A DNA stretch of 49,536 nucleotides from the NCBI GenBank assembly GCA_019894665.1, contig JAGXOC010000007.1, positions 1-49,536 on the forward strand. Reading direction: 5' to 3'. The notes under the pieces are model-generated. The model was not told the DNA's origin. It was given only the letters and a program-made list of their open reading frames with translations, and searched no databases. Source of the stretch: Candidatus Thorarchaeota archaeon. GTDB taxonomy: Archaea > Asgardarchaeota > Thorarchaeia > Thorarchaeales > Thorarchaeaceae. Made by a program: the position numbers and the translations under genes. Shown one piece after another: positions 28,831 through 45,693 of this stretch (its first letter is position 1; each line of letters starts with the position of its first letter).

Positions 28831-29964
28831 CTAGTGTAGCCTGCCTATTATCTCTTCCATTGGTTTGTACTCAAGCTCGGGATGACCGTATCTCTCAGGA
28901 GAGAACGCTTTCTTCCCAATTTCTGTACTTCCAGCATATCGTAATCGCTCATGAGCCGGAACTGCAGTGACAACTACATCCATTCCTTTCTTGAGATCAG
29001 AGCTCATTACTCCATGGCCTGTGTCTGGATAGTGTAGACAGATAAGATCAGGGAACATGACTACAGGCACACCGTCACTCATGGCCATCATGTACTCGTT
29101 CTTCACAGCGATCTCGAAGCTGCCTTTGAGATTCTCGCCCTTGATACGTACCAACACATGCCAATGTCCTGCACGGTCCTCGCCCTTGACTTCTTCAATC
29201 CTACCTTGGGTTAATATTTGACCACCCATTTCATCTAGAAAAGCATCAACTGGGTTGTTCTTGTTCTCATTGGCATCACGAACTGCTGCACCGAGCGCGA
29301 TTGACTTCGAGATGCTGTTTGGAATCACAGCTTTCTTCAGTTGAGCTCCTGATTGAGGATAGTGATTATTTGCTCCAGCACCTCCATCCTGCACAACAGC
29401 GAATCTTCCAATTTCGTCAGCCAGGGCTGGTGAGGTGGTTTTATCGACGATAATGATACTTCCATTCTTAGATACAACAGGCATTGGACAGAGTTCAATC
29501 CCATACCCCACGAATGTTATCATCTGAGATTCAGGTGCAGATCTTCCTAGACCGTCCCCATCAACACAGGTTATCCCTGTTCTAGCGGCTAACGAGAGCA
29601 TTACCGTTGTGTTAGTTCCACCTAGTTCAAATGGGACAAGGTGGTCAACTTTCTTTCCAGCGATTTTTTCGGATATCTTCATGGCTTCATGAAGTTCATA
29701 TCGGGTTTCCCAGGTCTCTAGCATGTCTCCTATTGAAGTAAATGCATTGACAGAACCCATGTATCCTCCACAAACAATGAAGGCATCATCTTTGATATCC
29801 TCGGGTGGGATTATTTCATAGACTCGCCCCTTATTGTAGTCCCAATCTACCATGGGTTTTCCAAAGGATACAGGGTCTCCACCACCGCCTGTTCCAAGGA
29901 TTCCAACTCCAGTGAGCATATCATACGCATTCTCTTTCGACAGCTTCATACCTAACAACCTCAT
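28831..29964 (-). CDS. DUF917 (S-methyl-thiohydantoin desulfurase-like) protein, copy A
   Basis: GVGILGTGGGGDP, VCGGYMGSV, VPFELGGTNTTVMLSLAARTGITCVDGDGLGRSAPESQMITF. Confidence 0.85.
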   Translation of the reverse strand: MRLLGMKLSKENAYDMLTGVGILGTGGGGDPVSFGKPMVDWDYNKGRVYEIIPPEDIKDDAFIVCGGYMGSVNAFTSIGDMLETWETRYELHEAMKISEKIAGKKVDHLVPFELGGTNTTVMLSLAARTGITCVDGDGLGRSAPESQMITFVGYGIELCPMPVVSKNGSIIIVDKTTSPALADEIGRFAVVQDGGAGANNHYPQSGAQLKKAVIPNSISKSIALGAAVRDANENKNNPVDAFLDEMGGQILTQGRIEEVKGEDRAGHWHVLVRIKGENLKGSFEIAVKNEYMMAMSDGVPVVMFPDLICLHYPDTGHGVMSSDLKKGMDVVVTAVPAHERLRYAGSTEIGKKAFSPERYGHPELEYKPMEEIIGRLH

Positions 29965-29979
29965 ATAGCTGAATCTAAG

Positions 29980-30792
29980 TTAATCCGCGTTACGTGTTCC
30001 GTCCATTGAATGGACTATCTTGTACCAACGTTTCTTTGTGCCAACCTTAGCCCGTCGGTTCCAACTCCGTGACTTTGGAGCATCCTCAATCATTTGATTG
30101 AGCTTGTTGGCTTGCTCAATCACATGGTCTTTCTGTTCTTTCGTTATCTCATTGACTGTGGGTACAAAATCAATGAATTTCTTGAGGTTCTCTGTCACTG
30201 TGTAGTAAAAGCCCCAATCATCAGCAAGTATTTTGGAAATGTAAGAACCGTTTACCTTTCTGTCATCATCTTCTTCGCTAATTTCATGAGCTAGAAATGT
30301 GATAATCAGATCTTTCAGATCCTTTGCGTTAATTTCCACTATCTGGGTCTTCTCAAGAAACAGCTCAGCTAATGGAATAGTTGGTTTATCAACTTCAAGT
30401 CGCTTATTCTTCTTGAAATCTATCTTGTGACAGAATTCTAAATGGTCGTAGAACACATCGACTTTCCTACCTGTGTTCTGGTCAATGAACAGGTCTCGAA
30501 GGGTACTAGCTCGTGCAAAACTGGGAGGGACCCAATGATAGCCTAGATCATCTCGAAACAGATTGATGATTTTTTGCTGATGTTTAAAGTAAGACATGTA
30601 GTCTATGTCGGTCACTTCTCGCCCCATCTTGATATGAAGATCAGAATACTCTGGACTCTTAATCCTAAAAGCTAGGCAACCGATTACACGTAGAGGAATA
30701 TCTAATTCAGCGGCAGCCTTTTCAATTCGTACAGCCTCATCCATGAAGTCCTCGAGAATTGGACCATATTTGCCTGTCAATAGTAAATTCAC
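29980..30792 (-). CDS. nucleotidyltransferase-fold protein (AbiEii-like), module copy A
   Basis: LRVIGCLAFRI...GREVTDIDYMSYF; VDVFYDHLEFCHKIDF...KRLEVDKPTIPLAELFLEKTQIVEINAKDLKDL; paralogue of 44287-45057. Confidence 0.7.
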   Translation of the reverse strand: MNLLLTGKYGPILEDFMDEAVRIEKAAAELDIPLRVIGCLAFRIKSPEYSDLHIKMGREVTDIDYMSYFKHQQKIINLFRDDLGYHWVPPSFARASTLRDLFIDQNTGRKVDVFYDHLEFCHKIDFKKNKRLEVDKPTIPLAELFLEKTQIVEINAKDLKDLIITFLAHEISEEDDDRKVNGSYISKILADDWGFYYTVTENLKKFIDFVPTVNEITKEQKDHVIEQANKLNQMIEDAPKSRSWNRRAKVGTKKRWYKIVHSMDGTRNAD

Positions 30793-30934
30793 CTCAAAGA
30801 CATGGGTTGTCTTTCCATGACTGGAATGTCGTGTGAATTATAATTCTTACGTCACAGCAGTCGTGGACAGTCATTTTTCTAAGTCTTATTAAAGTGATGT
30901 GAAAGGGTTGCACCATTAAACTTTAAACTAGCTG

Positions 30935-30954
30935 GACTGACTTTTTTTTCAGTC
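30935..30954. promoter_or_regulatory. GACTGA-N8-TCAGTC inverted repeat upstream of metallophosphoesterase A
   Basis: gactgacttttttttcagtc; AT-rich attaaactttaaac just upstream could be a TATA region. Confidence 0.35.
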
Positions 30955-30993
30955 TGTGTGAAAGTATAGAGCACGGACACCTGAGGTAATCAA

Positions 30994-31935
30994 ATGAGAA
31001 TTTTTCTAGCGGCAGACCCTCATGGAAGTCAGCAGACTTGGGAGAAAATGTGCCGAGCCCCCAAGGTCTTCAAAGCAGACGTTGCCATGATGTGCGGAGA
31101 TTTGACAGGAAAGGCGATTACGCCTATCATTCAAGAGAAGGAAGGCCAGTGGTATGCACAACCAGCTGGTAAGAAAAAGACTTTCAAGAAACAGAACGAT
31201 CTGGACAAATTCGTCAAATTCACCCAGGACGAAGGATACTATCCTAAAATTCTGACTCCTGAAGAATTAGCTAAACTTCGTGAAACAAAGGGAGCCATTA
31301 CTCAACTCTTTGATGATCTCATGGTTGAGAGGATGCAACTCTGGATGGATATGGCCAATGAGAGAATCCCAGAGGAGGTCATGGTCGTGGTCAATCCAGG
31401 TAATGATGATGCTTATTCAATTGATAAAGTGATTGAAGATGATCCAAGAGTTATCTATCCACTAAAAAAGGTCGTAGACGTCAGAGGTCACCCAATGATC
31501 AGTCTAGAATGGGTAAATTCAACGCCATGGGATACTCACAGAGAATGCTCAGAGGAAGAGATGCTGGAAAAACTCGAGGCTGAATTCGCACGTCTTGAAA
31601 CGGACGATTACAGTAATGTGTTATGCAATTTTCATGATCCTCCCCATAATTCTGGACTGGATACTGCTCCTACCCTAGATGAGGACTTCAAGGTTAAGAA
31701 ATCTGGTGCGATGGAAGTTTTGGGACCCGTAGGTAGCAAGTCTGTCAGAGCTGTGATTGAAAAGTATGAGCCACTCCTAGGAATGCATGGCCACATACAC
31801 GAGTCTGTAGGGTACCGACAGATTGGCAAGACACTCTGCGTCAATCCAGGATCTGAATACAGAGAAGGAATCTTGAAAGGGTTCATTATCAATATTGAAG
31901 ATGGTAAGGTCAATGCTGGGCGAGTAGAGCTATAG
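30994..31935 (+). CDS. calcineurin-like metallophosphoesterase, module copy A
   Basis: MRIFLAADPHGS, MMCGDLTGKAI, NPGNDDAY, CNFHDPP, GMHGHIHES metal motifs. Confidence 0.9.
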   Translation: MRIFLAADPHGSQQTWEKMCRAPKVFKADVAMMCGDLTGKAITPIIQEKEGQWYAQPAGKKKTFKKQNDLDKFVKFTQDEGYYPKILTPEELAKLRETKGAITQLFDDLMVERMQLWMDMANERIPEEVMVVVNPGNDDAYSIDKVIEDDPRVIYPLKKVVDVRGHPMISLEWVNSTPWDTHRECSEEEMLEKLEAEFARLETDDYSNVLCNFHDPPHNSGLDTAPTLDEDFKVKKSGAMEVLGPVGSKSVRAVIEKYEPLLGMHGHIHESVGYRQIGKTLCVNPGSEYREGILKGFIINIEDGKVNAGRVEL

Positions 31936-32065
31936 ACCCTATGACTAAGTTTGTGAGAGTGGATTCCAATCTCCACTTCCTAGTTTTTCAAGTATCAGCC
32001 AGCGGACATAAATAGGAGTATGGCTTTAACACAATTTAACACGCTTAAAGGTCGGTGTTAACTGG

Positions 32066-33181
32066 ATGACTTTGATATTAAAGACCAGGATAGATGTTGA
32101 TGATCTTACTACCGGTTGTACCTTCTTCGGAACCGGTGGGGGTGGAGATAAACAGCTTGGCCTAAATATGCTCAATCCACACATTGATGCTGGGAAAGCA
32201 ATTGAGATAGTTGATGTCAGCAATGTCAAGGATAACGACTGGGTTGCTTGCGCGTATTATTCCGGAACGATAGCACCTCCAACTCCCGAGATAGAAGCGT
32301 TACGAACCCGTTTTCCATGGGACTATTACGAAAAGGAACTATCCTTAGGTTTGGCTACACTTGAAGACCATATGGGTGTCAAATTTGCAGCCGTTGCACC
32401 GTTTGAGTTAGGAGGAATCAACACCCCTGCACCAATCGATGCTGCAGTAAAACACGGAATTCCATGTGTGGATGGAGACTACTCAGGAAGGGCTGTTCCA
32501 GAGATCTGTCAGAATACAGTATGTGTCAAGGGCTATTCTATGGCACCAATGGCACTCATTGACTGGTTTGGGAACAAAAGCATAGTAGAGCATATAATAA
32601 ACTACGAGATGGGTGAGCGATTATCAAAGGCTCTTAGCGAAGTTGCTTGGGGCAGACTAGGAAATGTTGCATTTCCAGTCAAAGGAAAAGACTTCCATGA
32701 TGCAATCATACCAGACACTTTGACTAAGAGTTACAATGTTGGAAAGTTGATACGAGAGTCCAGAGAATCAGGAGATGACCCTGCAGACAAAATAGTTGAG
32801 AAAGTTGGAGGATGGATTCTTTTCAGAGGAGAAGTCGTTGGACGAACTTGGGAGAATAGAGCTGGTTACATGTTTGGTGAAACTGAGATAAAGGGAAGTG
32901 GTATCAGACCAGGGTCGAAAATGAAAGTCTGGTTCAAGAACGAGAACCACATTACCTGGCTCGATGACAAGCCTTGGGTAACGAGTCCGGACATTATCGA
33001 AATTATAGATGCCAAGACTGGTGAACCAATCACCAACACTGACATCAAAATTGGTGATGAAGTCAGTGTCATAGGAATGAAAACTGAATCAATCTTCAGA
33101 GACCCAGAAGGTCTCAAAGTACTTGGACCAAGCCATTTCGGGTTTGATCTTGACTACAAGCCTATTGAGGATCTAGTCTAA
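32066..33181 (+). CDS. DUF917 (S-methyl-thiohydantoin desulfurase-like) protein, copy B
   Basis: GCTFFGTGGGGDKQLG, VAPFELGGINTPAPIDAAVKHGIPCVDGDYSGRAVPEI. Confidence 0.85.
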   Translation: MTLILKTRIDVDDLTTGCTFFGTGGGGDKQLGLNMLNPHIDAGKAIEIVDVSNVKDNDWVACAYYSGTIAPPTPEIEALRTRFPWDYYEKELSLGLATLEDHMGVKFAAVAPFELGGINTPAPIDAAVKHGIPCVDGDYSGRAVPEICQNTVCVKGYSMAPMALIDWFGNKSIVEHIINYEMGERLSKALSEVAWGRLGNVAFPVKGKDFHDAIIPDTLTKSYNVGKLIRESRESGDDPADKIVEKVGGWILFRGEVVGRTWENRAGYMFGETEIKGSGIRPGSKMKVWFKNENHITWLDDKPWVTSPDIIEIIDAKTGEPITNTDIKIGDEVSVIGMKTESIFRDPEGLKVLGPSHFGFDLDYKPIEDLV

Positions 33182-33183
33182 GA

Positions 33184-33220
33184 TCCTGAGGGTCAGTTAT
33201 GCTAAACTAGCTGGCCCTCA
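33184..33220. terminator. hairpin (gagggtcag ... ctggccctc) between convergent genes
   Basis: cctgagggtcagttatgctaaactagctggccctcac read directly. Confidence 0.45.
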
Positions 33221-33235
33221 CACTCTTTACGAATT

Positions 33236-33940
33236 CTACGTCTGTCTTTCAGTAAGAATTCTCACAACGTAGTGCTTCCTGAGCCCCTTAGGTTCCTGAA
33301 TAATCTCTATGCCCCTGTATTCGTCGGTATAGATCTTTTGAGGTTTCTTTTCTGATTTAATTTCCTCTTTCCGCATAACCCGAGCTGCGTGATATATGAG
33401 GGCTTGAGTCCAGGTGTGGAGAAGCTCCTTTTCTTCCGCCAGTAAACCTCGAGTGTTTTCAGTATAATCGAAAATTGCCCATGCTACCTTACGGTTAAAC
33501 CAGGCATTAGTAAGTACTGAGAGGAAAATTGCTCCAATAGCTGTTAACGCTAAGGGTATGCTGACGACATAAACCCATTCAAGTCTAAATATCAAGCCAA
33601 AAACCAGCAAAGGCGCACTTATTGTTAATAAAGCAAGAGAAATGAAAGCAATTACCTGACGTTGGGCCATCCATTTCTCAACACCAGGTACTCTGGGTCC
33701 GATAGCCGCAAATTTATGCAATACGCCTCTCAATGTAGCCCATTGCATGAGGAATTCTCGAGGTGCTTTTCCTTTTGCCGCTCTACGCTCCATAAATGTC
33801 AAATCGAAGCATCTGTAAATTCTGTATCCATCGAATATACTGATCAAAGTCTGGGTAAGGTCCAGATCCAATTCGGACGGATCAAACTTGAAATCCTCAA
33901 GTGGGATACCAAGTCTTTTCTTTTTGCTGGTTTTACTCAT
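33236..33940 (-). CDS. 2-TM membrane protein, module copy A
   Basis: Two hydrophobic helices (VIAFISLALLTISAPLLVFGLIF; VYVVSIPLALTAIGAIFLSVLTNAWF); same layout and tail (EIIQEPKGLRKHYVVRIL) as 42510-43223. Confidence 0.7.
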   Translation of the reverse strand: MSKTSKKKRLGIPLEDFKFDPSELDLDLTQTLISIFDGYRIYRCFDLTFMERRAAKGKAPREFLMQWATLRGVLHKFAAIGPRVPGVEKWMAQRQVIAFISLALLTISAPLLVFGLIFRLEWVYVVSIPLALTAIGAIFLSVLTNAWFNRKVAWAIFDYTENTRGLLAEEKELLHTWTQALIYHAARVMRKEEIKSEKKPQKIYTDEYRGIEIIQEPKGLRKHYVVRILTERQT

Positions 33941-34073
33941 AACGGGTTGTCCTCTTTCAAGATTCGGGATTAACCCACCTAATTAACATTTAGGATTTTA
34001 AAAACCGGCTTGTTTAAGAGGGCACATAAACTCGATAGAAAAATGCTCCACATACATAGGTGGTAATTATAGA

Positions 34074-35006
34074 ATGTCAGAAGAAGCAGACCTTTCCGAT
34101 TATGAATACGTTGGGGTGGACCCTTTTTCAGAAAGACCTGACAAAGTGGCAATTGGCTCACAAGGTATACGATTTGTTCTTCAACGGGTTAAGAGAAGAA
34201 AAAGGACGCGTTATCAAGCAGTTTATGACATCGAATGGTCGGAGGTCATCTCCTTTGAGTGCTGTGAGGTCAGTTATGCGAAGGAAGGCAAATCCTGGCC
34301 CCTAGATGAGGACCCGAGAGAGAAACTTGATATCATTGGACCTGCGGGTATGATGTTCTTTTTCCTCATACCAAAAGATGAAGGGATCTTTCAGGTCTGG
34401 TCTTATATTCCTCTAGAAGATGTCAAGCATGTCAGAGAGTTAGTTGAGAAATATAAGGGCAAACCACAAGTGCATCGTCTAGCGCACCATGGAAATGCCG
34501 CAGTTGTTAGGCATGTGTTGGAGCATTGTACAGTTTTATCTCGACACCAGACCACTTGGCATGACTGGATAAAGACTGGTCCACTCCTTGGCAAACCAAG
34601 AAAGAAATTCACTGAGAAAGGACCGGAATACGTATTTTGTGAAGAAGGGTTTGCCATTGACCACTATGGAGCAGGCGAGATGCTTGAGCAGATGTCTACG
34701 TTTTGGCCTTGGCGGATAATCGAGAATGTTTTCTTAGATGACTATACGATTGTGTATCAGTGGTTTGATGATGGATACGTCTTTCGGCAACAGGTATGGG
34801 ACAAAGATGAAAGAAAAACTATCCTTGATGCAGCTAAGAGCGCATTTGCTGTAAATCAGAATGCAGTTGGTGTAAAGGAGCTACTCTTAATCAGACCTTG
34901 GGCATTTCCATCTTATTTCTACACTACTTGGGAGAAGTTGGATCCATTATCCTGCAAAGCCAGTCGAAATGGATTCCCACCAGTCTATGATTTCGTTGAA
35001 GAATGA
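34074..35006 (+). CDS. hypothetical protein, possibly two beta-rich (PH-like) domains
   Basis: 310 aa intact ORF, divergent from the membrane protein; no family recognised. Confidence 0.6.
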   Translation: MSEEADLSDYEYVGVDPFSERPDKVAIGSQGIRFVLQRVKRRKRTRYQAVYDIEWSEVISFECCEVSYAKEGKSWPLDEDPREKLDIIGPAGMMFFFLIPKDEGIFQVWSYIPLEDVKHVRELVEKYKGKPQVHRLAHHGNAAVVRHVLEHCTVLSRHQTTWHDWIKTGPLLGKPRKKFTEKGPEYVFCEEGFAIDHYGAGEMLEQMSTFWPWRIIENVFLDDYTIVYQWFDDGYVFRQQVWDKDERKTILDAAKSAFAVNQNAVGVKELLLIRPWAFPSYFYTTWEKLDPLSCKASRNGFPPVYDFVEE

Positions 35007-35105
35007 ATTGCAGAGCTCAATTCAATTTGATCTGTCAGACATTGACACAAGTCTTAGCGCATAACGGCACAGACTATCAAAAATAATTCCAAAAAGAAAA
35101 AGGTG

Positions 35106-35128
35106 GAAGAGAGCTTGCTGCTCTCTTC
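35106..35128 (-). terminator. perfect 9-bp hairpin then T-rich on minus strand, end of APC permease A
   Basis: gaagagagc-ttgct-gctctcttc; minus-strand downstream CTTTTTCTTTTTGG. Confidence 0.7.
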
Positions 35129-35140
35129 GCCTATTATTGA

Positions 35141-36703
35141 TTATTCTGGTGGTAGTTGTCCGAAGATTGCGGACATCTCGATACCCTTGGCCTTGTTCTT
35201 GCCACCATAGTACATGTATGCTATTTGACCAATTACGTACACGAGCACAGTGAAGAGAATCTCATGCTGTGCAGTGGGTACGAATGCAATCATAGCATAG
35301 AAGAATATGGCACCTGAAACCAGACCGCCTATCGCAACAAGTGGGACACCAAGGACCTTCCACCCGCCACTACGCTCCCATAACGTGGGCCGATAGTATG
35401 GTAACGACACTGCTGCCAGCGCCATCTGCCACCGTATGAAGACATAGGTGAACGCCACACCGATCAGAGCACCAAGAGCTGTCGCGTAGACAGCCTGCAG
35501 TATGGTTGCGTATAGTACGGTTGCTGTTGCAAGGATCAGCCAGAAGTACAACGTAATGTGAGGTACGTGATACTTTGGATGTACCTTTGCGAATGCTTCA
35601 GGACAGAACCGGTCCATAGCCATCGAGTGCATAGGTCTCGTGACCCAAAGCGCATTGCTTGGGGAGTCGAGCACACTAGCAAAGATTGGTCCCAAGATAA
35701 CAAACCAGGCCAGCGGACTTGCACCCAGAACAACAGCAGCATAGTTGCCGAATCCTGGGAAGAAAGTAAGTCCTTGACCGAAGGCGGTGTTTGCTTGATA
35801 CAGGAATGAACCCATTGCTGACTGAAGTGCAAAGCCGGATAGTAAGAACATGGCAGTGATGCCAGCCCAACCACCAACATTGCTCAATGGAATGTTCTTG
35901 CTTGGTTGTGATACTTCACCAGCTACTGGCATAATGAGGTAAGGCCACATCATACCCACTGTGACTATCAGAGCAGGACCCATCGCCGCAGGATTCAGCA
36001 TCGTAAACGTTCCTAGTTGACCAGGACCCGTTCCGGGCGGTATCGTAGCATTGATCGCAGCGTAGTTGCCAAATATGGCATCCCACGACCCCGCAAAGTC
36101 CTGTGCGAATATTAGGACCAGGTCACCCACTAACAGCGACGCTATGTTGATGATTCCTAATATGATCACAAACCATCCGAGCCACTTGACACTCAAGTAG
36201 CTAAAGACGAAACCAATTAGAATCATGACAAAGGCCGCAATGAACAATGGGATTGGTTCATTCAGTGTTGTCGCTAGACTCAACAGACCAGCATCACCAG
36301 AAGCACTACCGATAACGAATAGTCCACCAGCGAAAATCTGTACTGCGAAAAAGCTACCAGTTCCCCTAAATACAGGGTTGGTAATCACGCTTCGCCAACC
36401 TTCCATCACACCAAAAATTGGGCTCAGACCACGACCAGTGAAGTGGTATGAAGCTCCCGATCTTGGCATCGCAAGCATTAGACACATCAGGGCAATCGCT
36501 TCAAAGAATACTGCGAACCCTCCCAATGCGAACATTGGGACTAGAAGTGCACCTGGATTCCAAGTCGAAATCTGTGGACCAGCAAAGTGGAACCACGGAC
36601 CAAGTGTTAGTGCAATCGGAAGAAGAAGTGCGAAGCCCGTACCTACTTCCTTTACTAGGCCGGAGCTCTCTCGCACGAAGAGGAGTTTATCTTCCTCGCT
36701 CAA
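35141..36703 (-). CDS. APC-superfamily amino acid/amine permease, copy A
   Basis: 12-TM protein; MPRSGASYHFTGRGLSPIFGVMEGWRSVITNPVF; homologous to 40680-42284. Confidence 0.9.
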   Translation of the reverse strand: MSEEDKLLFVRESSGLVKEVGTGFALLLPIALTLGPWFHFAGPQISTWNPGALLVPMFALGGFAVFFEAIALMCLMLAMPRSGASYHFTGRGLSPIFGVMEGWRSVITNPVFRGTGSFFAVQIFAGGLFVIGSASGDAGLLSLATTLNEPIPLFIAAFVMILIGFVFSYLSVKWLGWFVIILGIINIASLLVGDLVLIFAQDFAGSWDAIFGNYAAINATIPPGTGPGQLGTFTMLNPAAMGPALIVTVGMMWPYLIMPVAGEVSQPSKNIPLSNVGGWAGITAMFLLSGFALQSAMGSFLYQANTAFGQGLTFFPGFGNYAAVVLGASPLAWFVILGPIFASVLDSPSNALWVTRPMHSMAMDRFCPEAFAKVHPKYHVPHITLYFWLILATATVLYATILQAVYATALGALIGVAFTYVFIRWQMALAAVSLPYYRPTLWERSGGWKVLGVPLVAIGGLVSGAIFFYAMIAFVPTAQHEILFTVLVYVIGQIAYMYYGGKNKAKGIEMSAIFGQLPPE

Positions 36704-36791
36704 AGTTTTTTGTTCTCCTTTATTTTACTCTCTCACGGGAAACAAATTGTTCCACATGATGTATCATTACATTAATTCCCTGATATTTAAA

Positions 36792-36820
36792 TTAAAGGGT
36801 ACTCTTTTTGAGTACTTTAA
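36792..36820. promoter_or_regulatory. inverted repeat TTAAAGGGTACTC-TTTTT-GAGTACTTTAA upstream of APC permease A
   Basis: Perfect gtactc/gagtac core, extended arms with 2-nt insertion. Confidence 0.45.
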
Positions 36821-36880
36821 CAAGGAGTTTAATATTAATAGTTCCTATTCGATTCGTGAAAGGCCGGGGTCATGCGTATA

Positions 36881-37672
36881 CTACGATAAACGTCGAAGAT
36901 GTTTGAAAAAATCGTGGTCCAAAAGGAGTACCTCAACACTCTTCGAACGGACACCAGTTCGGCTCTCTAGAAGAATATTTAGCATGATGTTTATGTCCAT
37001 TATGTGGACTGGAGGAACTGAAACCTTCATGCCTCCTGTGTTTCCGAGCGCCTCCTGTTTTCCCTCAGGAGTGACTGTGCCATTTGTGATAAGCACACCT
37101 TGATTTGCCTGATAGGTGGGGAGAGACCCTCGAATCTCACGTATAAGGTCAACCCCTACCTTTCCGTCGTACTCACACTTCTTTGCATATACGACAACAG
37201 GAGACTTGCCACCATCATCTCGCCACGAAGTTATGATCACAACAGTTTCATCATATCTGTGAACTTCAACAGCCTCTTCAATACGAGCTCGTGTGTTGAG
37301 TAATATGATTTTTGCTAGGTCATCGAACCCTTCCAGATCAAGCTTAGCTATCTCATGCCGCATCTCGCGACGAGTTGCATGATTAAAATCAGCGGCTCGG
37401 GAGCGCACTTCAGAAATCAGCTCTTCATCCACAGCCCCTTCGCAAAGGTCATTGTATTGATAGAGTCCTGGGCCAGTACGCATGAAGTAAGCAGGTCTAT
37501 TGTCTACCTGAGCTTGCTTGCCTTCAATGGACAAAGATGCAGAAACAGATGCGGGGTCACGTTCTAGTGCTTCTGCGATTTTCTTATAGTGGACTGGTTC
37601 AGCACGTGCGTGTTGTGCGAGCCATTCTCTCAATGTAAGTTTGGATACTCTTTCTATCAATTTCAATCGCAA
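36881..37672 (-). CDS. HARE-HTH-like winged helix fused to Mrr/restriction-endonuclease-like domain
   Basis: N-term LTLREWLAQHARAEPVHYKKIAEALERDPASVSASLS...GPGLYQYN; C-term LDLEGFDDLAKIILLN...VVVYAKKCEYDGKVGVDLIREIRGSLPTYQANQGVLITNGTVTPEGKQEA. Confidence 0.6.
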   Translation of the reverse strand: MRLKLIERVSKLTLREWLAQHARAEPVHYKKIAEALERDPASVSASLSIEGKQAQVDNRPAYFMRTGPGLYQYNDLCEGAVDEELISEVRSRAADFNHATRREMRHEIAKLDLEGFDDLAKIILLNTRARIEEAVEVHRYDETVVIITSWRDDGGKSPVVVYAKKCEYDGKVGVDLIREIRGSLPTYQANQGVLITNGTVTPEGKQEALGNTGGMKVSVPPVHIMDINIMLNILLESRTGVRSKSVEVLLLDHDFFKHLRRLS

Positions 37673-37903
37673 CCTATGGTATCGTATGTTAGTTTATCCT
37701 CACCCGTTGTGACGTTCGAACAAACTTGTGTCAGTAGAGGTGAATCAAGGTGATTACGGATGAAATCCCCTTTATGATGTTTACTCATCTTCAAAGTGTC
37801 CATTAGTATTGGAGGAAGCTACTTCCTAGGACAAACTACCACTCACTCAATTTAAACTTTAACCGTATGTTAACTAGGGCGAATTGCGAAAAGCTCCATT
37901 TCA

Positions 37904-38374
37904 CTATTTGTCCCAACGGTAAATGCAATGATCGTCGCCACGCATCATGCACTTCGGAACGCTCATTGATAGACGAGAGTCTATAGCTTGGGCGATTCCT
38001 TCGTCAATTTTAGTGACATAATCGCATATGTCTTCTTTTGCTCCTTTCACACGAAATGTGTCAATCCAAGGACACGCAGTCACCTTAATGTCTATTTGTC
38101 GATCACTCACATCAACCATTTCTAATTCGAAACCAAAGTAGGGATATGCTGCGGCAAAGAACTCGAAGATAGATTTTAGGTCCCCTTTTCTAAGTCCACC
38201 GTCTTTCACACCTTGTTCTCCAAGCTCCAGACCATGCAACCGGTTAGCTTCTGCTAGAGCATCGAGACCCTTCTTACCAAAGTTCTCCCTTACTGTTTCT
38301 ACATAAACTGTATGAGCAGCAGCTACAGTTGACATTCCAACTATTCTAACATCTTCAGCAGATGGTTTGTCCAT
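37904..38374 (-). CDS. L-2-amino-thiazoline-4-carboxylic acid hydrolase / V4R-like protein, copy A
   Basis: ACPWIDTFRVKGAKEDICDYVTKIDEGIAQAIDSRLSMSVPKCMMRGDDHCIYRW. Confidence 0.55.
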   Translation of the reverse strand: MDKPSAEDVRIVGMSTVAAAHTVYVETVRENFGKKGLDALAEANRLHGLELGEQGVKDGGLRKGDLKSIFEFFAAAYPYFGFELEMVDVSDRQIDIKVTACPWIDTFRVKGAKEDICDYVTKIDEGIAQAIDSRLSMSVPKCMMRGDDHCIYRWDK

Positions 38375-38389
38375 TTCTAATACATCCTT

Positions 38390-39856
38390 TTAGTTAGACT
38401 TCGTTTTCTTTGTGCGATCCTCGATTAATTTCCTCATGGCTGATTCCATTTTCTTATCGAGTGGTTCAATCTTGTGTGTCAAAAGAATCTCCTTTACTTT
38501 CTCTCTAGCAACATCTTCTATGGTCTTTGAGCCTCTCTTTTCCCACTCAGGCCGTGATGTCCTATTACTAATCAGAGGTTGCCATTGTTCCTCCAGAAGA
38601 TGCTTTTTAGTAAACTTGAGAGCTTCAGGGGTATTCAAATGGTTCTTCTCATGTCCAACGGTTTCTATGATGTCTACAGCCAAAGTTTCGGGAGTTACTT
38701 GAATGCCCTTGGATATACGTTTAATGGCGCCACAGATATCATTGCTAATTGCAAACATCTCGTAACTAGCTGTGACCCCAGCCTCAACGATTCCATAGAC
38801 AGCATCATGAACCACGTCAGCACCCGAAACAGTAGCAAGTAACACGTTCATAGTATTTTCGTATGCAGCTTGTTGATCAGGGACCTTAGAGTCTATCACA
38901 CCAGCAGCACCATAATATGGAAGACCATAGTAGTGAGCCATCTGGCAAAATGCGGCATGAATCAGTCCATTCTCAGGTGATCCATAGGCGGCAGTCCCGT
39001 ACCGCTGATCCAATATTGTGGCACAGGACCCCCACATGATAGGAGTTCCAGGACCAATTAGCTGAGCCAAAACTACTATTGCATGATTCTCGGCAATACC
39101 TTGCACAATTGTTCCTGCAAGTGTTACAGGTCCACTTGCACTTGATAACAAACCTGTGCTAATATCAAAGGGTATTCTATACTTAGCACATTCAAGAACC
39201 ATATCAATGATTTCACGTGTATATTTCAGAGGGGGAACGTTATTGAATCCGGTATCAATGATAGATGGATTCTTGATAAACTCGTCCTCGCCTCCTGCAT
39301 AGATCTTTGCCATCTCTATGACATCTCTCCAGCCCTCAGGAGTTAGTGCCACAAGACTCAGGTGTTTCTCTGCACTCTTGAACATTGCAAGAGCCATTTC
39401 CTGCTCCCATACCGACTTCGGTACATCCTGAGGCAAAATGTTCGGTTTGATGTAGTCAACTGTTTGGAAATAATCTGCTAGAAGTGTAAACTCTTCTAAG
39501 TCCTTGATTGTTGAGAGTCGACGTTCTCCTGTTTCCAAGTCTATTGTATAATGAGCACCAAATGCATTTGTGAAATAAGAGTCCCCATCACCTATGACGA
39601 TATTGTATTTTGGATTTCGAGCAATGAGTTTATGCCTTCTAGGACTTTTCTGAAGCGCATCGTGAACCATGTATTCAGGGATTTTTACGACCTTTGTCTT
39701 GTCATCAACAGTCGCTCCAGCATCAGCGAGTTTCTTCAATGCTGCATCATGTTGAATGACTACACCAATTCGTTCAAGAACTTCCATTGCTGCTGTATGT
39801 ACTGCAGATATTTCACCGCGACCTAGTAATCTATACATGTAATTCCTCCATATCAT
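38390..39856 (-). CDS. trimethylamine methyltransferase (MttB) superfamily protein, no internal stop/Pyl codon
   Basis: GRGEISAVHTAAMEVLERIGVVIQ...DSYFTNAFG...GLPYYGAAGVIDSKVPDQQAAYENTMNVLLATVSGADVVHDA. Confidence 0.9.
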   Translation of the reverse strand: MIWRNYMYRLLGRGEISAVHTAAMEVLERIGVVIQHDAALKKLADAGATVDDKTKVVKIPEYMVHDALQKSPRRHKLIARNPKYNIVIGDGDSYFTNAFGAHYTIDLETGERRLSTIKDLEEFTLLADYFQTVDYIKPNILPQDVPKSVWEQEMALAMFKSAEKHLSLVALTPEGWRDVIEMAKIYAGGEDEFIKNPSIIDTGFNNVPPLKYTREIIDMVLECAKYRIPFDISTGLLSSASGPVTLAGTIVQGIAENHAIVVLAQLIGPGTPIMWGSCATILDQRYGTAAYGSPENGLIHAAFCQMAHYYGLPYYGAAGVIDSKVPDQQAAYENTMNVLLATVSGADVVHDAVYGIVEAGVTASYEMFAISNDICGAIKRISKGIQVTPETLAVDIIETVGHEKNHLNTPEALKFTKKHLLEEQWQPLISNRTSRPEWEKRGSKTIEDVAREKVKEILLTHKIEPLDKKMESAMRKLIEDRTKKTKSN

Positions 39857-39863
39857 TCATCAA

Positions 39864-40511
39864 CTAGCCTTTGATAAGCTGTTTCACCAGAGAAACAGCT
39901 GATACAGCATCTCCGGCCCAACCATCGGCTCCAATTTCGTCAGCCCATTCTTGAGTTGTAGGAGCTCCACCAACTATTACCTTGACATCTCCCCTCAATC
40001 CTGATGCTTTCAGTTTCTCGATTACATCCTTTTGAGCGGGCATCGTAACAGTAAGAAGAGATGACAAACCTAGGACATCGGGCTTGTGTTCTTTCACCTT
40101 CTCCATGAAGGTCTCTGATTGGACATCCTCACCAACATTCAAGACTTCGAATCCATCAGCTTCAAGCAGGGTTCCTACTATGTCTTTGCCTATGCTATGA
40201 ATGTCACCTTGGACTGTGCCTATCATTACTTTTCCTGCCGAAATCATCTCTGCTTTGGATTCTTTAATCACAGGGAGAAGAACTGACATACCAGCTTTCA
40301 TGGCATCTCCAGCCAGGATTAGTTCAACGAGGAATACCTGTCCCTCACTAAACAAATCACCTACTGTCTTTACACCCTTTGCTAGCCCATTTGTGATCAC
40401 ATCAAGGGGAGGGATTCCAGCTTCGAGCGCGTTCTTAGCTAAACTCACCGATTTTTCTGAATCACCCTCTATGACTGCATTTTGTAATTCTTCAAAAATC
40501 ATAGACTCCAT
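39864..40511 (-). CDS. corrinoid (B12-binding) methyltransferase partner protein
   Basis: VMIGTVQGDIHSIGKDIVGTLLEADGFEVLNVGEDV (DxHxxG) with helical cap domain. Confidence 0.93.
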   Translation of the reverse strand: MESMIFEELQNAVIEGDSEKSVSLAKNALEAGIPPLDVITNGLAKGVKTVGDLFSEGQVFLVELILAGDAMKAGMSVLLPVIKESKAEMISAGKVMIGTVQGDIHSIGKDIVGTLLEADGFEVLNVGEDVQSETFMEKVKEHKPDVLGLSSLLTVTMPAQKDVIEKLKASGLRGDVKVIVGGAPTTQEWADEIGADGWAGDAVSAVSLVKQLIKG

Positions 40512-40648
40512 TCTTCAACTCAACCTCACAGAATTTACGGTCTACTCCATCATATATATCTAATCATGAACGATTCAAATTATTAAACTGGTTCCCCTTT
40601 ATCTTATAATCTTCTTAAACTAATCTCTAACTGGGCTAATATTGAGGA

Positions 40649-40681
40649 AAAAAAAGGGGGAGAAGGGGCGTTGAAGCCCCT
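40649..40681 (-). terminator. hairpin plus poly-T (minus strand) at end of APC permease B
   Basis: aggggc-gttgaa-gcccct; minus-strand downstream CCCCCTTTTTTTTCC. Confidence 0.7.
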
Positions 40682-42284
40682 ACTCTGGTGGTAACGATTC
40701 GTAGATCGATTCCACTTCAATGTCCTTGTTTCGTAGCCTTTGGCTATACACAACAAACCACAGTGCTGAAAAGCCATATGTTATGCACATCATGACTATT
40801 GACACGAATGCAGCACCTTGGAAGAATCCTATAGCCAAGAAGAGCGAAACTGGTAGGATTATGACGCCCAAGAGCGACATTAATGGGTATTTCGCAATCT
40901 CAGGTTGTTTACGAATGCTTCCCTCATATAACGGCCGTTTCATGTATGGAATTCCTAATGCCGATAGCGAATGGAATATCATCTCAATACCCCAGAGCCC
41001 TATTAGCGCCGTAAGGACCGCCAAGAAACCAGCAAGTTCAGGGACCGCAAATGCGAATGCAAATGGAGCACCAAAAAGGAAGTAGTAACCGATTGCATAT
41101 GTCGGTGTGTGGTATTTAGACAGCTTTCCGAAGAAAGAAGGCATCATCCGGTCTAGTGAAGCTTGGAAGAAGCCCCTAGTAACCCAGGCCATATTCATCG
41201 GTGTAGCAGTGAGACCGACAACCACAGGTGAAAGTAGTATCCATCCTGCAATTATAGGATTGCCAGCCAGTACCGCAGCGAATGTCCCTAGTCCTCCTTG
41301 AAAGATTCCATTAAAAGCAAACGTCGCGTCTCCCCGACCTACCGCGGCCGCAGCCGTAGCGTACTCCGTAGAGAATGTCCCGAAAACGCCCTGGAATATT
41401 GCTGCTGCAGATGCGAGCATGATGGCAAGAAGTATCCCACCAACTACCTGAACTCTGACAAGGTTCTTTGCGGGATCTGATATTTCACCACCATAGTGAA
41501 GAATCAAGTATGGCCATACAAGACCAATGGGCCATATTGTTGCCAATAGTGTCATCTGCAAGTTGAATGGCGCTGCACCAAACCCAGCAGCCGATGCTAC
41601 AGTTGTTACTTCTGAATAAGCACCTGCTCCCCAAACAGCATCCCAGCGACCCGGAACGGCTGAAACAGGAGTTGCTATCATAACAAGGATAGCCAAAATC
41701 CAGCCTACCGTTGAGAAAACGCCTCCTGCCATCATAATCGTAGGTTCAACTTTAAAGAGCGGACCTAGATAGGCAATAATGGAGAACAATGCCAATAGAC
41801 CTATTGAAAGACCTATCAGAACGCCAGGACTCTGCATGGAGAATGTGACTCCCAATGCGGTCAATGCCGCGTTACCAGAAACAGCACCCCACTGTGCGAA
41901 TGCAGCACCCAAAAAGACAAGGAATAAGTAGAATTCGCTCATCTTTATGATCGGATTTGCGATGATGCCACGCCACACAGCAATTATCCCCGCTTGTGGA
42001 TTAAGACCACGTGCAGAGATTTGATATATTCCCGCTGAGCGAGGCATCGCCATCGACATCAACGTTATCATCACAGTATAGATTAACATGAATAGCATCC
42101 CTATGCCCCATGTCATACCAGCATTAATACCAGGGTACATGTCTTGAAGGGTTCCAACAAAGAGCCATTGAAATGTGCCCAAGCTAGCGCCCATCATGGC
42201 AAAGAGAGCAGTCCATGTTCCAAAATACTTCGTCAATCCTGAAGTCGGTCTTAGAAACAGGATCTCTGAAGAAGTTTTTTCCAT
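40680..42284 (-). CDS. APC-superfamily amino acid/amine permease, copy B
   Basis: 12-TM protein; AMPRSAGIYQISARGLNPQAGIIAVWRGIIANPI parallels copy A. Confidence 0.9.
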   Translation of the reverse strand: MEKTSSEILFLRPTSGLTKYFGTWTALFAMMGASLGTFQWLFVGTLQDMYPGINAGMTWGIGMLFMLIYTVMITLMSMAMPRSAGIYQISARGLNPQAGIIAVWRGIIANPIIKMSEFYLFLVFLGAAFAQWGAVSGNAALTALGVTFSMQSPGVLIGLSIGLLALFSIIAYLGPLFKVEPTIMMAGGVFSTVGWILAILVMIATPVSAVPGRWDAVWGAGAYSEVTTVASAAGFGAAPFNLQMTLLATIWPIGLVWPYLILHYGGEISDPAKNLVRVQVVGGILLAIMLASAAAIFQGVFGTFSTEYATAAAAVGRGDATFAFNGIFQGGLGTFAAVLAGNPIIAGWILLSPVVVGLTATPMNMAWVTRGFFQASLDRMMPSFFGKLSKYHTPTYAIGYYFLFGAPFAFAFAVPELAGFLAVLTALIGLWGIEMIFHSLSALGIPYMKRPLYEGSIRKQPEIAKYPLMSLLGVIILPVSLFLAIGFFQGAAFVSIVMMCITYGFSALWFVVYSQRLRNKDIEVESIYESLPPE

Positions 42285-42509
42285 CAGTAAATCTCCTCCA
42301 TGTTATGATGAGCTTTTACTATAGCTCACCTAACAACGCGAAACAATAAATAACGACTTGATATATATAAACTAATCGAATTAATTTTCTAATGGTTATA
42401 ATATTTAAACGAATAATTAAATCCATTAATTATCCTGACTCGATTATTTTTAAAAAAATCTCTCAGCAGACTTCAGGAAATTCTTAGATTTTCATATAAA
42501 CTTCATGAA

Positions 42510-43223
42510 TCACTCAGGATGTGGTGCGTCGATAAAGATTTTTACAATGTAATATTTTCGCCATGGTTTGGGGGTTTTTGTAATCTCAATATTCTGGTAA
42601 TCAATCATACCTAGCGCGACTTCATGATCCTCAGGATCTTCACCGGTTATGAGTAAATACCTATGTAACTCATCAATAAGTAATTGGACAGCTTTGCGAA
42701 CTGCAATTTCTCGAAGTTTATGTGCATCAGGGTTGTCATCATAAAATGCATGGATTCTCTTGCCAATTCTGTTACCTATCAAAAATCGTGAGAAAAGACC
42801 AGTAAACAATGATGTGAACGCAATAATCATCACATAGGGCGAAACTACTCCGAGGATTGGTATATCTGGAGCCATAATGCTCACGAACAATAATATAAAC
42901 ATGATAGGAACTGAAACTTGCCAAAGTATTTCGAAATACGATTGTATCCTCGCTAGACGTATAAGACCCGGAATAGATGAGGTTATTCGGGCCATTTTTA
43001 TTAAGTTCTTATGAATGTCTTTCCAGTTGTTTGAAAATTCACGTCCTATGCTACGACTTTTTACAAGCGGCTCGACCCAAGAAACGTCATAGAAGACATG
43101 ACTTCGATAAGCATCCACATTGTAGATGACCTTTCCTATATCAGTAGGTTTGATTCCCAATACTCGGCGATCTATTATTGGAGAGCCTTTTCTCTGACGC
43201 TCGCTTCTTTTCCCTTTTGACAT
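42510..43223 (-). CDS. 2-TM membrane protein, module copy B
   Basis: Two hydrophobic helices mid-protein; C-term NIEITKTPKPWRKYYIVKIFID parallels copy A. Confidence 0.7.
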   Translation of the reverse strand: MSKGKRSERQRKGSPIIDRRVLGIKPTDIGKVIYNVDAYRSHVFYDVSWVEPLVKSRSIGREFSNNWKDIHKNLIKMARITSSIPGLIRLARIQSYFEILWQVSVPIMFILLFVSIMAPDIPILGVVSPYVMIIAFTSLFTGLFSRFLIGNRIGKRIHAFYDDNPDAHKLREIAVRKAVQLLIDELHRYLLITGEDPEDHEVALGMIDYQNIEITKTPKPWRKYYIVKIFIDAPHPE

Positions 43224-43247
43224 CGGTTCATCACATGTTTTTCTTTG

Positions 43248-44201
43248 TCAGGCGGATACATTGAGGACCTCTACTTTTCCCCCAGATTCCTTCGGCAGGT
43301 CAATGACGAAGGCATTTAACATTCCCTGCGTGTAGACTGATCCAGAGTTTACACAGAGCGATCTACCAATATGCTCAATCCCTCCAGACTCGTGAATGTG
43401 TCCATGAAGACCGAGAAGTGGTTGATATTTTTCAATCAGTTCACGAACACTCGTGCTACCCACATTAACCATTTTTGGACGTCCAAACCGCATCTTCACG
43501 CTGAGATTCTCGTCAAGCTTTGGTGCAAGGTCAATCCTCGTTCCATAAGGTGGTGCATGGAAATTGCAAATCAGATTCTCATACTTGTCGACTCTGTCGA
43601 ACTCTCTTTGTAATTTATCCCTTAATTCATCTTCAGGACATTCACGGGGTGTATTATCCCATGGAGTCGTGTTTACCCATTCGCAACTTATCAGTTGGTG
43701 GTCTTCATCAATGTCCACAACGGTTTCTAAGGGGTAAATGGATTTAGCGCTGGCTTTAATGAGACCATCAATTGGTTGGTGGTCGTCATTTCCTGGTGAG
43801 ATTATCACTTTGATTTCGTCAGGTATTGTTTCATCGATAAGCTTCATCCATTCCTCCATGCGGTCCATCATTAGTTTGTTAAAGAGTTCATCAACCTTCT
43901 CTCGGTTCGATTGAAGCTCAGTCAGTTCGTCTTGAGTTGTGAGGAACCAGTAGAATCCTCTCTTCTCGTACATTTTCTTGGCTTGTTCGACATCTTGTTC
44001 CGATGTGTATTTTTCTTTATTGCCATAAGGGGATGACCACCATAAACCGGGCTTCTCTTCAACTATAGGAACAATAGCCTTCCCGGTAAGGTCACCACAC
44101 ATCATCACGACATCACAGTTGTATGCCTTGTGAACCTTTGCCATCTTACGAAGTACAGGTACACTACCATGAGCGTCACATGCGAAGAAAATCCGAGTCA
44201 C
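43248..44201 (-). CDS. calcineurin-like metallophosphoesterase, module copy B
   Basis: RIFFACDAHGS, MMCGDLTGKAIVPI, SPGNDDHQ, CNFHAPPYG, GLHGHIHES; clear paralogue of 30994-31935. Confidence 0.9.
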   Translation of the reverse strand: MTRIFFACDAHGSVPVLRKMAKVHKAYNCDVVMMCGDLTGKAIVPIVEEKPGLWWSSPYGNKEKYTSEQDVEQAKKMYEKRGFYWFLTTQDELTELQSNREKVDELFNKLMMDRMEEWMKLIDETIPDEIKVIISPGNDDHQPIDGLIKASAKSIYPLETVVDIDEDHQLISCEWVNTTPWDNTPRECPEDELRDKLQREFDRVDKYENLICNFHAPPYGTRIDLAPKLDENLSVKMRFGRPKMVNVGSTSVRELIEKYQPLLGLHGHIHESGGIEHIGRSLCVNSGSVYTQGMLNAFVIDLPKESGGKVEVLNVSA

Positions 44202-44286
44202 AAACTAGCCTCTCAAGCGAGTTCCCACAACAGATATTTAAGCATTCGTGTGGAATGCGACGACTCAGGCTCTTGAGGGTTTAAGC

Positions 44287-45057
44287 ATGGAAGATGATAT
44301 TAAACAGGACAATATTTTCATTGATGAATCTAAGAAAATCCTTGAGGAGGCGGAAAGACAAGGTGTGACTCTGAGAGTCATGGGTTCCATCGCTGTAAGA
44401 CTTCACTGTCCGGATTCTATTGATCTGATTAAGAAACTCGGTCGACCAATAACCGACATAGATTATGTTGCCTATGACAAACAGAGTTCCAAGATTCAGA
44501 AGCTCTTTGAGAATCTTAGCTATGTGCAAAGACAGCTTTCCTATAGCTATGTGCAAGCTGGAAGACTGATTTTCATTAACCCAGTCAATCAAGAAGTTGT
44601 GGATGTTTTCTTAAATCGACTAGCCATGTGTCATACCATTGATTATTCTAAAAGACTCGAGGTAGATAGTCCAACAGTACCTCTTGCGGAGATAATCTTG
44701 CAGAAGATGCAAATTGTGATGATTAGCGAGAAAGATGTGAAAGATACATTTGTTCTCTTTAGAGAGCATGATGTAGGGGATAATGACAACAATATGATTA
44801 ATGGGAAGTATATTGCGAAACTGATGTCTAAAGACTGGGGTTTCTATTACACTGTGACAACTAATTTACAAAAAGTAAAGAATCTAATGCCACAATTTTC
44901 AGTATTAAGTGAGCAGGATAAGACAACCATCTCTAATAGAATTGACAGTCTCCTTAGGAGAATTGAGGACGAACCGAAGAGTAGTTCATGGAAAATACGA
45001 GCGAAGGTCGGTCCCCGAAAGAAATGGTATAATGATGTCTACTCGGCTCCCAAGTGA
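44287..45057 (+). CDS. nucleotidyltransferase-fold protein (AbiEii-like), module copy B
   Basis: LRVMGSIAVRL...LGRPITDIDYVAYD; KRLEVDSPTVPLAEIILQKMQIVMISEKDVKDT; NGKYIAKLMSKDWGFYYTVTTNLQK; ATG at 44287. Confidence 0.72.
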   Translation: MEDDIKQDNIFIDESKKILEEAERQGVTLRVMGSIAVRLHCPDSIDLIKKLGRPITDIDYVAYDKQSSKIQKLFENLSYVQRQLSYSYVQAGRLIFINPVNQEVVDVFLNRLAMCHTIDYSKRLEVDSPTVPLAEIILQKMQIVMISEKDVKDTFVLFREHDVGDNDNNMINGKYIAKLMSKDWGFYYTVTTNLQKVKNLMPQFSVLSEQDKTTISNRIDSLLRRIEDEPKSSSWKIRAKVGPRKKWYNDVYSAPK

Positions 45058-45168: not shown

Positions 45169-45693
45169 TCATTTTCTCCTTTTGGAAATAATAACTGTGC
45201 AGAATTTGCCGTTCTTCTGAAGACCTGTTTCTCCAACATCTGGAGGTGTCTGGATTTCAAGTTCAGGATTCCAACCCTCGACAAACCCATTATCGAAAAG
45301 CTCCATAATAGGGCAAACCGTTTTCAGGTAGTCTTCAGACAGCCCCTCATCTTTGAAAGCTGGGACAAGGGTTGGTACTGGACATCTACGCCAATGGATG
45401 ACTGCACGATCTTCTGTGATCTCAACAATCTCTGGGCTGAATACTTTGGTACCTCCAAAAAGCTCTCCCAGTGTCACTAAATCATTCTTCCCTATAGCTT
45501 TTGCTGCATTCTTCCCAGCGACGTATCCAGCATCGTAATTTACTTTCTTGAGATCTTCAAGAATCTCATCACCATATTTACCGGGAAGTCTATGGATAAG
45601 ATATGACACAATCAAACAACGTGTTGCTATCTCTCCAGCAACTAGTTCATTGCATAGATTCCAAGTAAGTTCTCTGTCTGACAACATAATCAC
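45169..45693 (-). CDS. L-2-amino-thiazoline-4-carboxylic acid hydrolase-like protein, copy B (divergent)
   Basis: WRRCPVPTLVPAFKDEGLSEDYLKTVCPIMELFDNGFVEGWNPELEIQTPPDVGETG. Confidence 0.45.
   Translation of the reverse strand: MIMLSDRELTWNLCNELVAGEIATRCLIVSYLIHRLPGKYGDEILEDLKKVNYDAGYVAGKNAAKAIGKNDLVTLGELFGGTKVFSPEIVEITEDRAVIHWRRCPVPTLVPAFKDEGLSEDYLKTVCPIMELFDNGFVEGWNPELEIQTPPDVGETGLQKNGKFCTVIISKRRK

Follow-up and report, generated by a model that had tools for sequence, protein, structure and literature searches.

Why would one archaeal contig carry two copies of a gene pair for a nucleotidyltransferase (NTase) and a metallophosphoesterase (MPE), each close to a gene for an APC permease? The stretch concerned, here called the window, comprises 49,536 nucleotides from Candidatus Thorarchaeota archaeon (GenBank assembly GCA_019894665.1, contig JAGXOC010000007.1, positions 1 to 49,536). 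An initial annotation, made without database searches, had assigned two NTases, two MPEs and two membrane proteins with two transmembrane segments (2-TM proteins) to a duplicated module, and all six open reading frames (ORFs) are indeed present where it had placed them. The window contains two side-by-side copies of a transport module that consists of an APC permease, an NTase and an MPE, plus an archaeal 2-TM protein. The NTase, the MPE and the permease are almost certainly functionally coupled, and we tentatively propose, at somewhat less than even chances, that they constitute an undescribed writer/eraser switch dedicated to a transporter, in which the NTase would nucleotidylate the permease or a partner bound to its tails and the MPE would reverse this modification. 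The features of the two modules are the following (evidence in brackets):

29980..30792, minus strand: NTase of module A, pol-beta-type nucleotidyltransferase fold (ORF, BLASTP, 60-sequence alignment, AlphaFold, Foldseek)
30994..31935, plus strand: MPE of module A, phosphodiesterase-like, with GNDD motif, divergent from the NTase (BLASTP, alignment)
33236..33940, minus strand: 2-TM membrane protein of module A, archaeal accessory with homologues beside other archaeal modules (BLASTP, alignment)
34074..35006, plus strand: conserved protein, possible accessory (next to the 2-TM gene in those Thorarchaeal A loci whose contig extends far enough)
35141..36703, minus strand: APC permease a, module A (Pfam AA_permease; subfamily profile, 463.6 bits)
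36650..36679, minus strand: N-terminal tail motif of permease a, FVRESSGLVK (tail comparison)
35144..35185, minus strand: C-terminal tail motif of permease a, GIEMSAIFGQLPPE-COOH (tail comparison)
40680..42284, minus strand: APC permease b, module B (slightly below the AA_permease_2 cut-off; subfamily profile, 419.8 bits)
42228..42257, minus strand: N-terminal tail motif of permease b, FLRPTSGLTK (tail comparison)
40683..40724, minus strand: C-terminal tail motif of permease b, DIEVESIYESLPPE-COOH (tail comparison)
42510..43223, minus strand: 2-TM membrane protein of module B (AlphaFold model)
43248..44201, minus strand: MPE of module B (BLASTP, alignment, Pfam)
44287..45057, plus strand: NTase of module B (ORF, BLASTP)

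The paralogy on which the initial annotation was built is borne out by BLASTP, both for the NTases (43% identity over 247 amino acids, E 4e-70) and for the MPEs (47% over 314 amino acids, E 9e-108), and it extends to the 2-TM proteins, which share 22% identity (E 1e-10) and form a single family in a 31-member alignment. Copy B had been described as inverted relative to copy A. This applies to the divergent NTase/MPE pair only (201 bp apart in module A), whereas the 2-TM and permease genes lie on the minus strand in both copies. For the NTase of module B, the ATG at 44287 is a better start than the in-frame GTG at 44248. In the MPE tree (100/99) and in the APC tree (100/100), the A copies and the B copies of Thorarchaeota form sister clades, showing that the duplication took in the permease too; the NTase tree does not resolve this split. 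The duplication is old, because both module copies are found across Thorarchaeota and because the identities between the NTases and between the MPEs of the window are near the 41% average between modules of different phyla.

A scan of a genome collection with an NTase profile yielded 360 relatives, from which 80 loci were kept; the linkage counts refer to the 52 loci outside the close Thorarchaeal set. An MPE is encoded within 3.5 kb of the NTase in 46/52 loci and an APC permease within 7.5 kb in 44/52, with both present in 40/52; many of the loci that lack one or the other lie on short contigs. The orders APC>MPE>NTase and MPE>APC>NTase are seen repeatedly, the genes being 1-100 bp apart, commonly 1-40 bp, and often arranged as a tight operon. 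The hosts include bacteria (Chloroflexota, Actinomycetota, Pseudomonadota, Thermodesulfobacteriota, Bacillota) as well as archaea (Bathyarchaeota, Nitrososphaeria, Thermofilaceae, Methanomicrobia). On a plasmid of Halobellus limi (NZ_CP031312.1), the genes for the MPE (386259-387281), the NTase (a 'hypothetical protein', 387328-388080) and an 'APC family permease' (388209-389795) are adjacent, and this permease has both of the conserved tails described below. No fusions of NTase, MPE or permease to one another occur among the ORFs examined.

Co-occurrence in other genomes had been named beforehand as a check, and it held for the NTase and the MPE. Although the profiles derive from loci in which the genes are linked, linkage played no part in the scoring, which covered whole genomes; many of the surveyed genomes are metagenome-assembled genomes (MAGs). 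Among 99 Asgard genomes, all three families occur in 19 genera and none in 18, without a discordant case. The NTase is present in 28 of 121 Chloroflexota genomes, the MPE in the identical 28 and the permease in all 28; one genome (G198) yields an extra permease match, a protein without either tail. For 298 Actinomycetota genomes the figures are 36 (NTase), 35 (MPE) and 35 (permease), with all three in 33, the permease counts being lower bounds since a first-look step scored four permease candidates per genome; four genomes are discordant, and in two of them (G406, G508) the MPE sits at the end of a contig. The Fisher test for NTase and MPE in Actinomycetota (p 7.5e-45) ignores phylogeny and is indicative only, and the Asgard tables at genus and family level agree with its result. 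In the Asgard family f12 (G058, G073, G080) the three genes are dispersed yet all present, so that co-occurrence is not a matter of linkage alone. Within genomes the three families have equal copy numbers (NTase/MPE/APC 2/2/2 in eight Chloroflexota genomes). This favours cognate, local action, with each pair serving its own permease. Chance proximity is ruled out by the linkage and co-occurrence statistics.

Several statements of the initial annotation can be judged on this basis. The permeases noted as nearby context are indeed close, but they proved to be a third obligate partner rather than context. From the proposed three-family system, the NTase/MPE pair remains as a widely conserved unit tied to transporters, and the 2-TM protein drops out of the core. 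The idea that the enzymes are coupled to the adjacent transporters, "perhaps tuning" them, gains support from the wide conservation of the pair and its linkage to permeases. The unit can be separated from the neighbouring DUF917 (S-Me-THD) genes but not from the APC genes, and this failure is itself an informative result.

Both window permeases belong to the APC superfamily: permease a scores 58 with Pfam AA_permease (cut-off 24.6), and permease b, at 26.3 versus a cut-off of 27 for AA_permease_2, is clear in the subfamily profile. Partnered permeases share a mean identity of 25% overall, versus 64% pairwise in the N-terminal tail (N-tail) before the first transmembrane helix, which reads [FY]xRxx[ST]GL[VTI][RK] with the arginine, the glycine and a serine or threonine present in 36/36 sequences each; the C-terminus ends at the same place, with G[IV][DPE]xxx[IA][FY]xE[IL]PP[EDA] or near it and a proline third from the end in 36/36, and these tail statistics partly reflect the shared ancestry of one permease subfamily. 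We propose to define this subfamily by the N-tail FxRxx[ST]GL, a C-terminal end of the [IL]xP[EDA] type and the presence of MPE and NTase in the genome; both window permeases fall within it, and the Asgard, Chloroflexota and Actinomycetota surveys agree with the definition. In a search of nine genomes with the general Pfam permease model, 13 permeases had the tails, with an MPE nearby in 10/13 and an NTase nearby in 9/13, whereas none of the approximately 15 tail-less APC permeases in the same genomes has an MPE nearby. Tail-bearing permeases distant from the enzymes keep both tails. Solved APC structures align to profile positions 12-516 at most, mostly from 17 onward, and none aligned to positions 1-11 or beyond 516. 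Given the tail-less APC permeases and the solved structures without tails, the tails mark an enzyme-dependent permease subfamily.

The histories of the three proteins are correlated as well. Distance matrices gave Mantel r values of 0.86 for MPE and permease, 0.65 for NTase and permease and 0.54 for NTase and MPE (0/2000 permutations each), and the MPE and permease trees both unite modules from Thermoproteota, Bathyarchaeota, Actinomycetes and Chloroflexota in one clade, which suggests that the module has been transferred between domains as a unit, although any single member may reflect binning error in a MAG. NTases and MPEs are about 41% identical between modules, and permeases go down to 25%. 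The catabolic neighbours vary by locus and comprise genes for aminotransferases, an FGGY kinase, glutamine-synthetase-like and dimethylglycine-dehydrogenase-like proteins, proline racemase, an MttB-like methyltransferase, aldehyde dehydrogenase and nitrilase-like proteins. Enzymes that stay steady while the permease core and the neighbours vary point to a constant target and not to the transported substrate, and the permease tails are the simplest candidate for such a target.

The NTase has no match above a curated cut-off in Pfam, NCBIfam or PADLOC, its best relevant weak match being NTP_transf_5 (E 5e-4, in 13/36 members), and a PDB sequence search returned nothing meaningful. Its AlphaFold model (pLDDT, predicted local distance difference test, 93.4) is more telling. 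The Foldseek comparison that the initial annotation had recommended retrieved NTase-fold proteins as the best PDB matches, namely MenT1 (the top match, E 1.7e-3), JHP933, CCA-adding enzymes, LnuA and ANT(2'')-Ia (probability ~1.0, E ~2e-3 to 2e-2), and the matches include the CD-NTases 6u7b and 6wt9. With the glycine, the DxD motif, a third acidic residue and the NTase fold, the protein belongs to the pol-beta nucleotidyltransferase superfamily. Loss of catalytic residues in homologues had been named as a finding that would speak against the module; they are kept in both enzymes. In 60 NTase sequences G38, D62, D64, D112, K148, K157, D158 and D161 are invariant, among some 22 invariant residues in all, with D62, D64 and D112 as the catalytic carboxylates. 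A second class of related NTases (~30-35% identical; loci L042-L051 and L096-L099) is solitary in Asgard archaea, with neither MPE nor permease nearby. Six loci (L186, L195, L204, L209, L219, L234) encode two divergent NTases and, where the locus is complete, one MPE; NTase heteromers or two modification sites are possible explanations.

The MPE carries the motifs of calcineurin-like metallophosphoesterases (DxH, GD, GN[HD], H, GHxH), and copy B scores above the cut-offs of Pfam Metallophos_2 and Metallophos. In 35 sequences from Asgard lineages, D8, H10, D36, N137, D138, D139, H214, H267 and H269 are invariant, as is the GNDD motif. The closest named relatives (yfcE, PRK09453, MJ0936) are phosphodiesterases, so the enzyme appears suited to cutting a phosphodiester between a nucleotide and a protein.

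These observations are best explained by a local, reversible switch formed by NTase and MPE for their own permease. By APC topology the permease tails should be cytosolic. The NTase would modify a hydroxyl group of a protein with a nucleotide. This protein would be either the permease itself, where the Ser/Thr found in every N-tail (FxRxx[ST]GL) is the best candidate site, or a partner that the tails hold in place. The MPE would cleave the resulting phosphodiester; a nucleotide placed on a hydroxyl gives just the kind of bond that a YfcE-like MPE would cut. Amino-acid or amine uptake could thereby be gated by the state of the cell, and in archaea the 2-TM membrane protein may assist the module. 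The near-obligate co-occurrence, the linkage, the matching copy numbers, the co-evolution of MPE and permease, the tail motifs specific to partnered permeases and the intact active sites are observations; from them we infer that nucleotides are transferred and removed again, as well as the permease as target, the residue and the effect on transport. The fully specified version, namely that a dedicated pair reversibly nucleotidylates the cytosolic N-tail Ser/Thr, that the module has moved between archaea and bacteria and that each permease paralogue has its own pair, is possible but more doubtful.

Some observations weigh against such a switch. Loci L204, L234 and L209 carry two NTases with one MPE/APC, which is not expected of a simple writer/eraser pair, and the megaplasmid of Thermomicrobium roseum (L305) has a tail-bearing APC permease next to an MPE but carries no NTase (the search covered the plasmid and not the chromosome). 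The nearest folds of the NTase include tRNA-modifying toxins and antibiotic adenylyltransferases, making RNA or small molecules possible targets. In addition, the C-tail has no invariant hydroxyl, and the conservation of the tails could reflect a gating function intrinsic to this APC subfamily.

The main rivals of the proposed switch are metabolic trapping and a nucleotide messenger. Trapping, in which the NTase would nucleotidylate the imported amino acid or amine and the MPE would free it for catabolism, has a parallel in the ANT and Lnu enzymes, which nucleotidylate antibiotics; the fold matches to LnuA and ANT(2'')-Ia and the adjoining genes for amino-acid and amine catabolism fit it. We nevertheless regard it as unlikely, because the neighbours change by locus and the permeases diverge to 25% identity while NTase and MPE keep their ~41% and the NTase its ~22 invariant residues, and because tails conserved only in partnered permeases would be left unexplained. 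A second messenger made by the NTase, degraded by the MPE and sensed by the permease tails or the 2-TM protein is consistent with CD-NTases among the fold matches and with a weak match of the MPE profile to Rv0805, which we take to be a cyclic-nucleotide phosphodiesterase. However, a diffusible signal needs no NTase and MPE per permease, yet the copy numbers match; moreover, a domain scan recognised no nucleotide-binding domain in the accessory proteins and the tails are too short for one, which makes a messenger less probable still.

Near-obligate co-occurrence and strong co-evolution of MPE and permease do not by themselves require catalysis, and both would be compatible with NTase and MPE serving chiefly to dock to the permease or to assemble it, and only secondarily as enzymes; this is improbable in view of metal and catalytic residues that are invariant over two domains of life in the NTase and over Asgard lineages in the MPE. 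The toxin-antitoxin or defence device envisaged by the initial annotation fared worst. A MenT-like NTase toxin and an MPE antitoxin lying near transporters by chance would agree with MenT1 as top fold match and with the match of the MPE to PADLOC PDC-S10, which covers chiefly generic C-terminal phosphoesterase motifs, but NTase and 2-TM protein have no PADLOC match, the neighbours are amino-acid and amine catabolism genes, and co-occurrence with one APC subfamily is all-or-none in three large surveys, leaving this explanation with very little probability. Membership in the MNT-HEPN, AbiE or MenAT systems was rejected, as MPE and APC recur and no AbiEi-, HEPN- or MenA-type partner does, and so was CBASS, given the metabolic context and the lack of PADLOC matches for NTase and 2-TM protein.

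Precedents exist for the proposed chemistry. GlnE acts on glutamine synthetase and GlnD on PII by reversible nucleotidylation, and both regulate nitrogen handling. Adenylylation by SelO is paired with RNase Z as a deAMPylase (PMC12663964). In these cases, too, a protein is nucleotidylated by a writer and the phosphodiester is cleaved by an eraser, whereas the module has separate writer and eraser genes that go with a membrane permease, and a calcineurin-like MPE acts as the proposed eraser; no sequence relation to curated families was detectable. We know of no transporter target of this kind. MenT1, LnuA, ANT(2'')-Ia and JHP933 share the fold of the NTase but differ from it in template-modelling scores of at most ~0.5, 10-17% identity, other partners and no link to transporters. 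The MPE has dinuclear-metal motifs and phosphodiesterase-type relatives in common with YfcE/MJ0936-type enzymes (Pfam Metallophos_2, Metallophos_3), but it is ~310 amino acids long, reaches Pfam cut-offs only at or near threshold and is partnered with a permease. The closest solved relatives of the permeases, GkApcT (5oqt, 6f34) and CAT/APC transporters, have the transport core in common; the alignments do not reach the N-tail FxRxx[ST]GL or the PPE-type C-terminus, and no partner enzymes have been described. Nucleotide- or nitrogen-linked control of uptake via a cytosolic element is familiar from c-di-AMP-regulated APC transporters of the KimA type and from AmtB-GlnK, which lack an NTase/MPE pair and have unrelated regulators. 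Full-text searching of one open-access collection yielded no description of the trio, subscription papers and preprints being outside the scope of the search, so that this absence does not prove that none exists. The folds are known, and the trio as a system matches none that we can name.

Homologues of the 2-TM protein occur only in archaeal modules (Asgard, Thermoprotei, Thermofilaceae, Thermococci), and it was therefore rejected as a universal core component. In the 31-member alignment R222 is invariant and D37, Y39 and R40 are nearly so. The module B protein is modelled with long central helices and C-terminal strands (pLDDT 88.8); the model has no significant match among PDB folds, and the sequence has no curated family match and nothing meaningful in the PDB. 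Two unannotated small families recur beside modules in bacteria and archaea (L189, L190, L191, L200, L204, L219, L234), one of ~150 amino acids that combines hydrophobic segments at the N-terminus with a soluble domain, the other soluble with ~160 amino acids; they are possibly counterparts of the archaeal 2-TM accessory. The conserved protein encoded at 34074..35006 gives a very weak bacterial-PH match.

Further genes surround the modules in the window. In the A loci of Thorarchaeota, and only there, DUF917 (S-Me-THD) proteins (28831-29964 and 32066-33181 in the window) are encoded on either side of the NTase/MPE pair, so that they were rejected as part of the core unit; together with an Asp/Glu/hydantoin racemase (28007-28774) they form a conserved block, putatively for the catabolism of hydantoins or thiohydantoins. 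An Mrr-type restriction-endonuclease domain protein (36881-37672) lies between permease a and module B, a position conserved in Thorarchaeota, and two small ATC-hydrolase-like proteins (37904-38374 and 45169-45693) bracket module B. Beside permease b, an MttB-superfamily methyltransferase and a corrinoid protein are encoded (38390-40511), which suggests a betaine-like or other methylated amine as module B substrate; the MttB-like gene has no in-frame stop and is therefore not of the pyrrolysine type.

What emerges is a permease subfamily that seldom, if ever, occurs in a genome lacking two enzymes of, in principle, opposite chemistries. As this pattern is seen in three separately surveyed genome groups and in the cultured haloarchaeon Halobellus limi, it is directly testable. 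To our knowledge, dedicated covalent-modification pairs that regulate prokaryotic secondary transporters are almost undocumented. The NTase and the 2-TM protein can now be named as two hitherto unannotated families, a phosphoesterase clade without assigned function receives a lead, and the permease tails offer a ready marker for finding the system.

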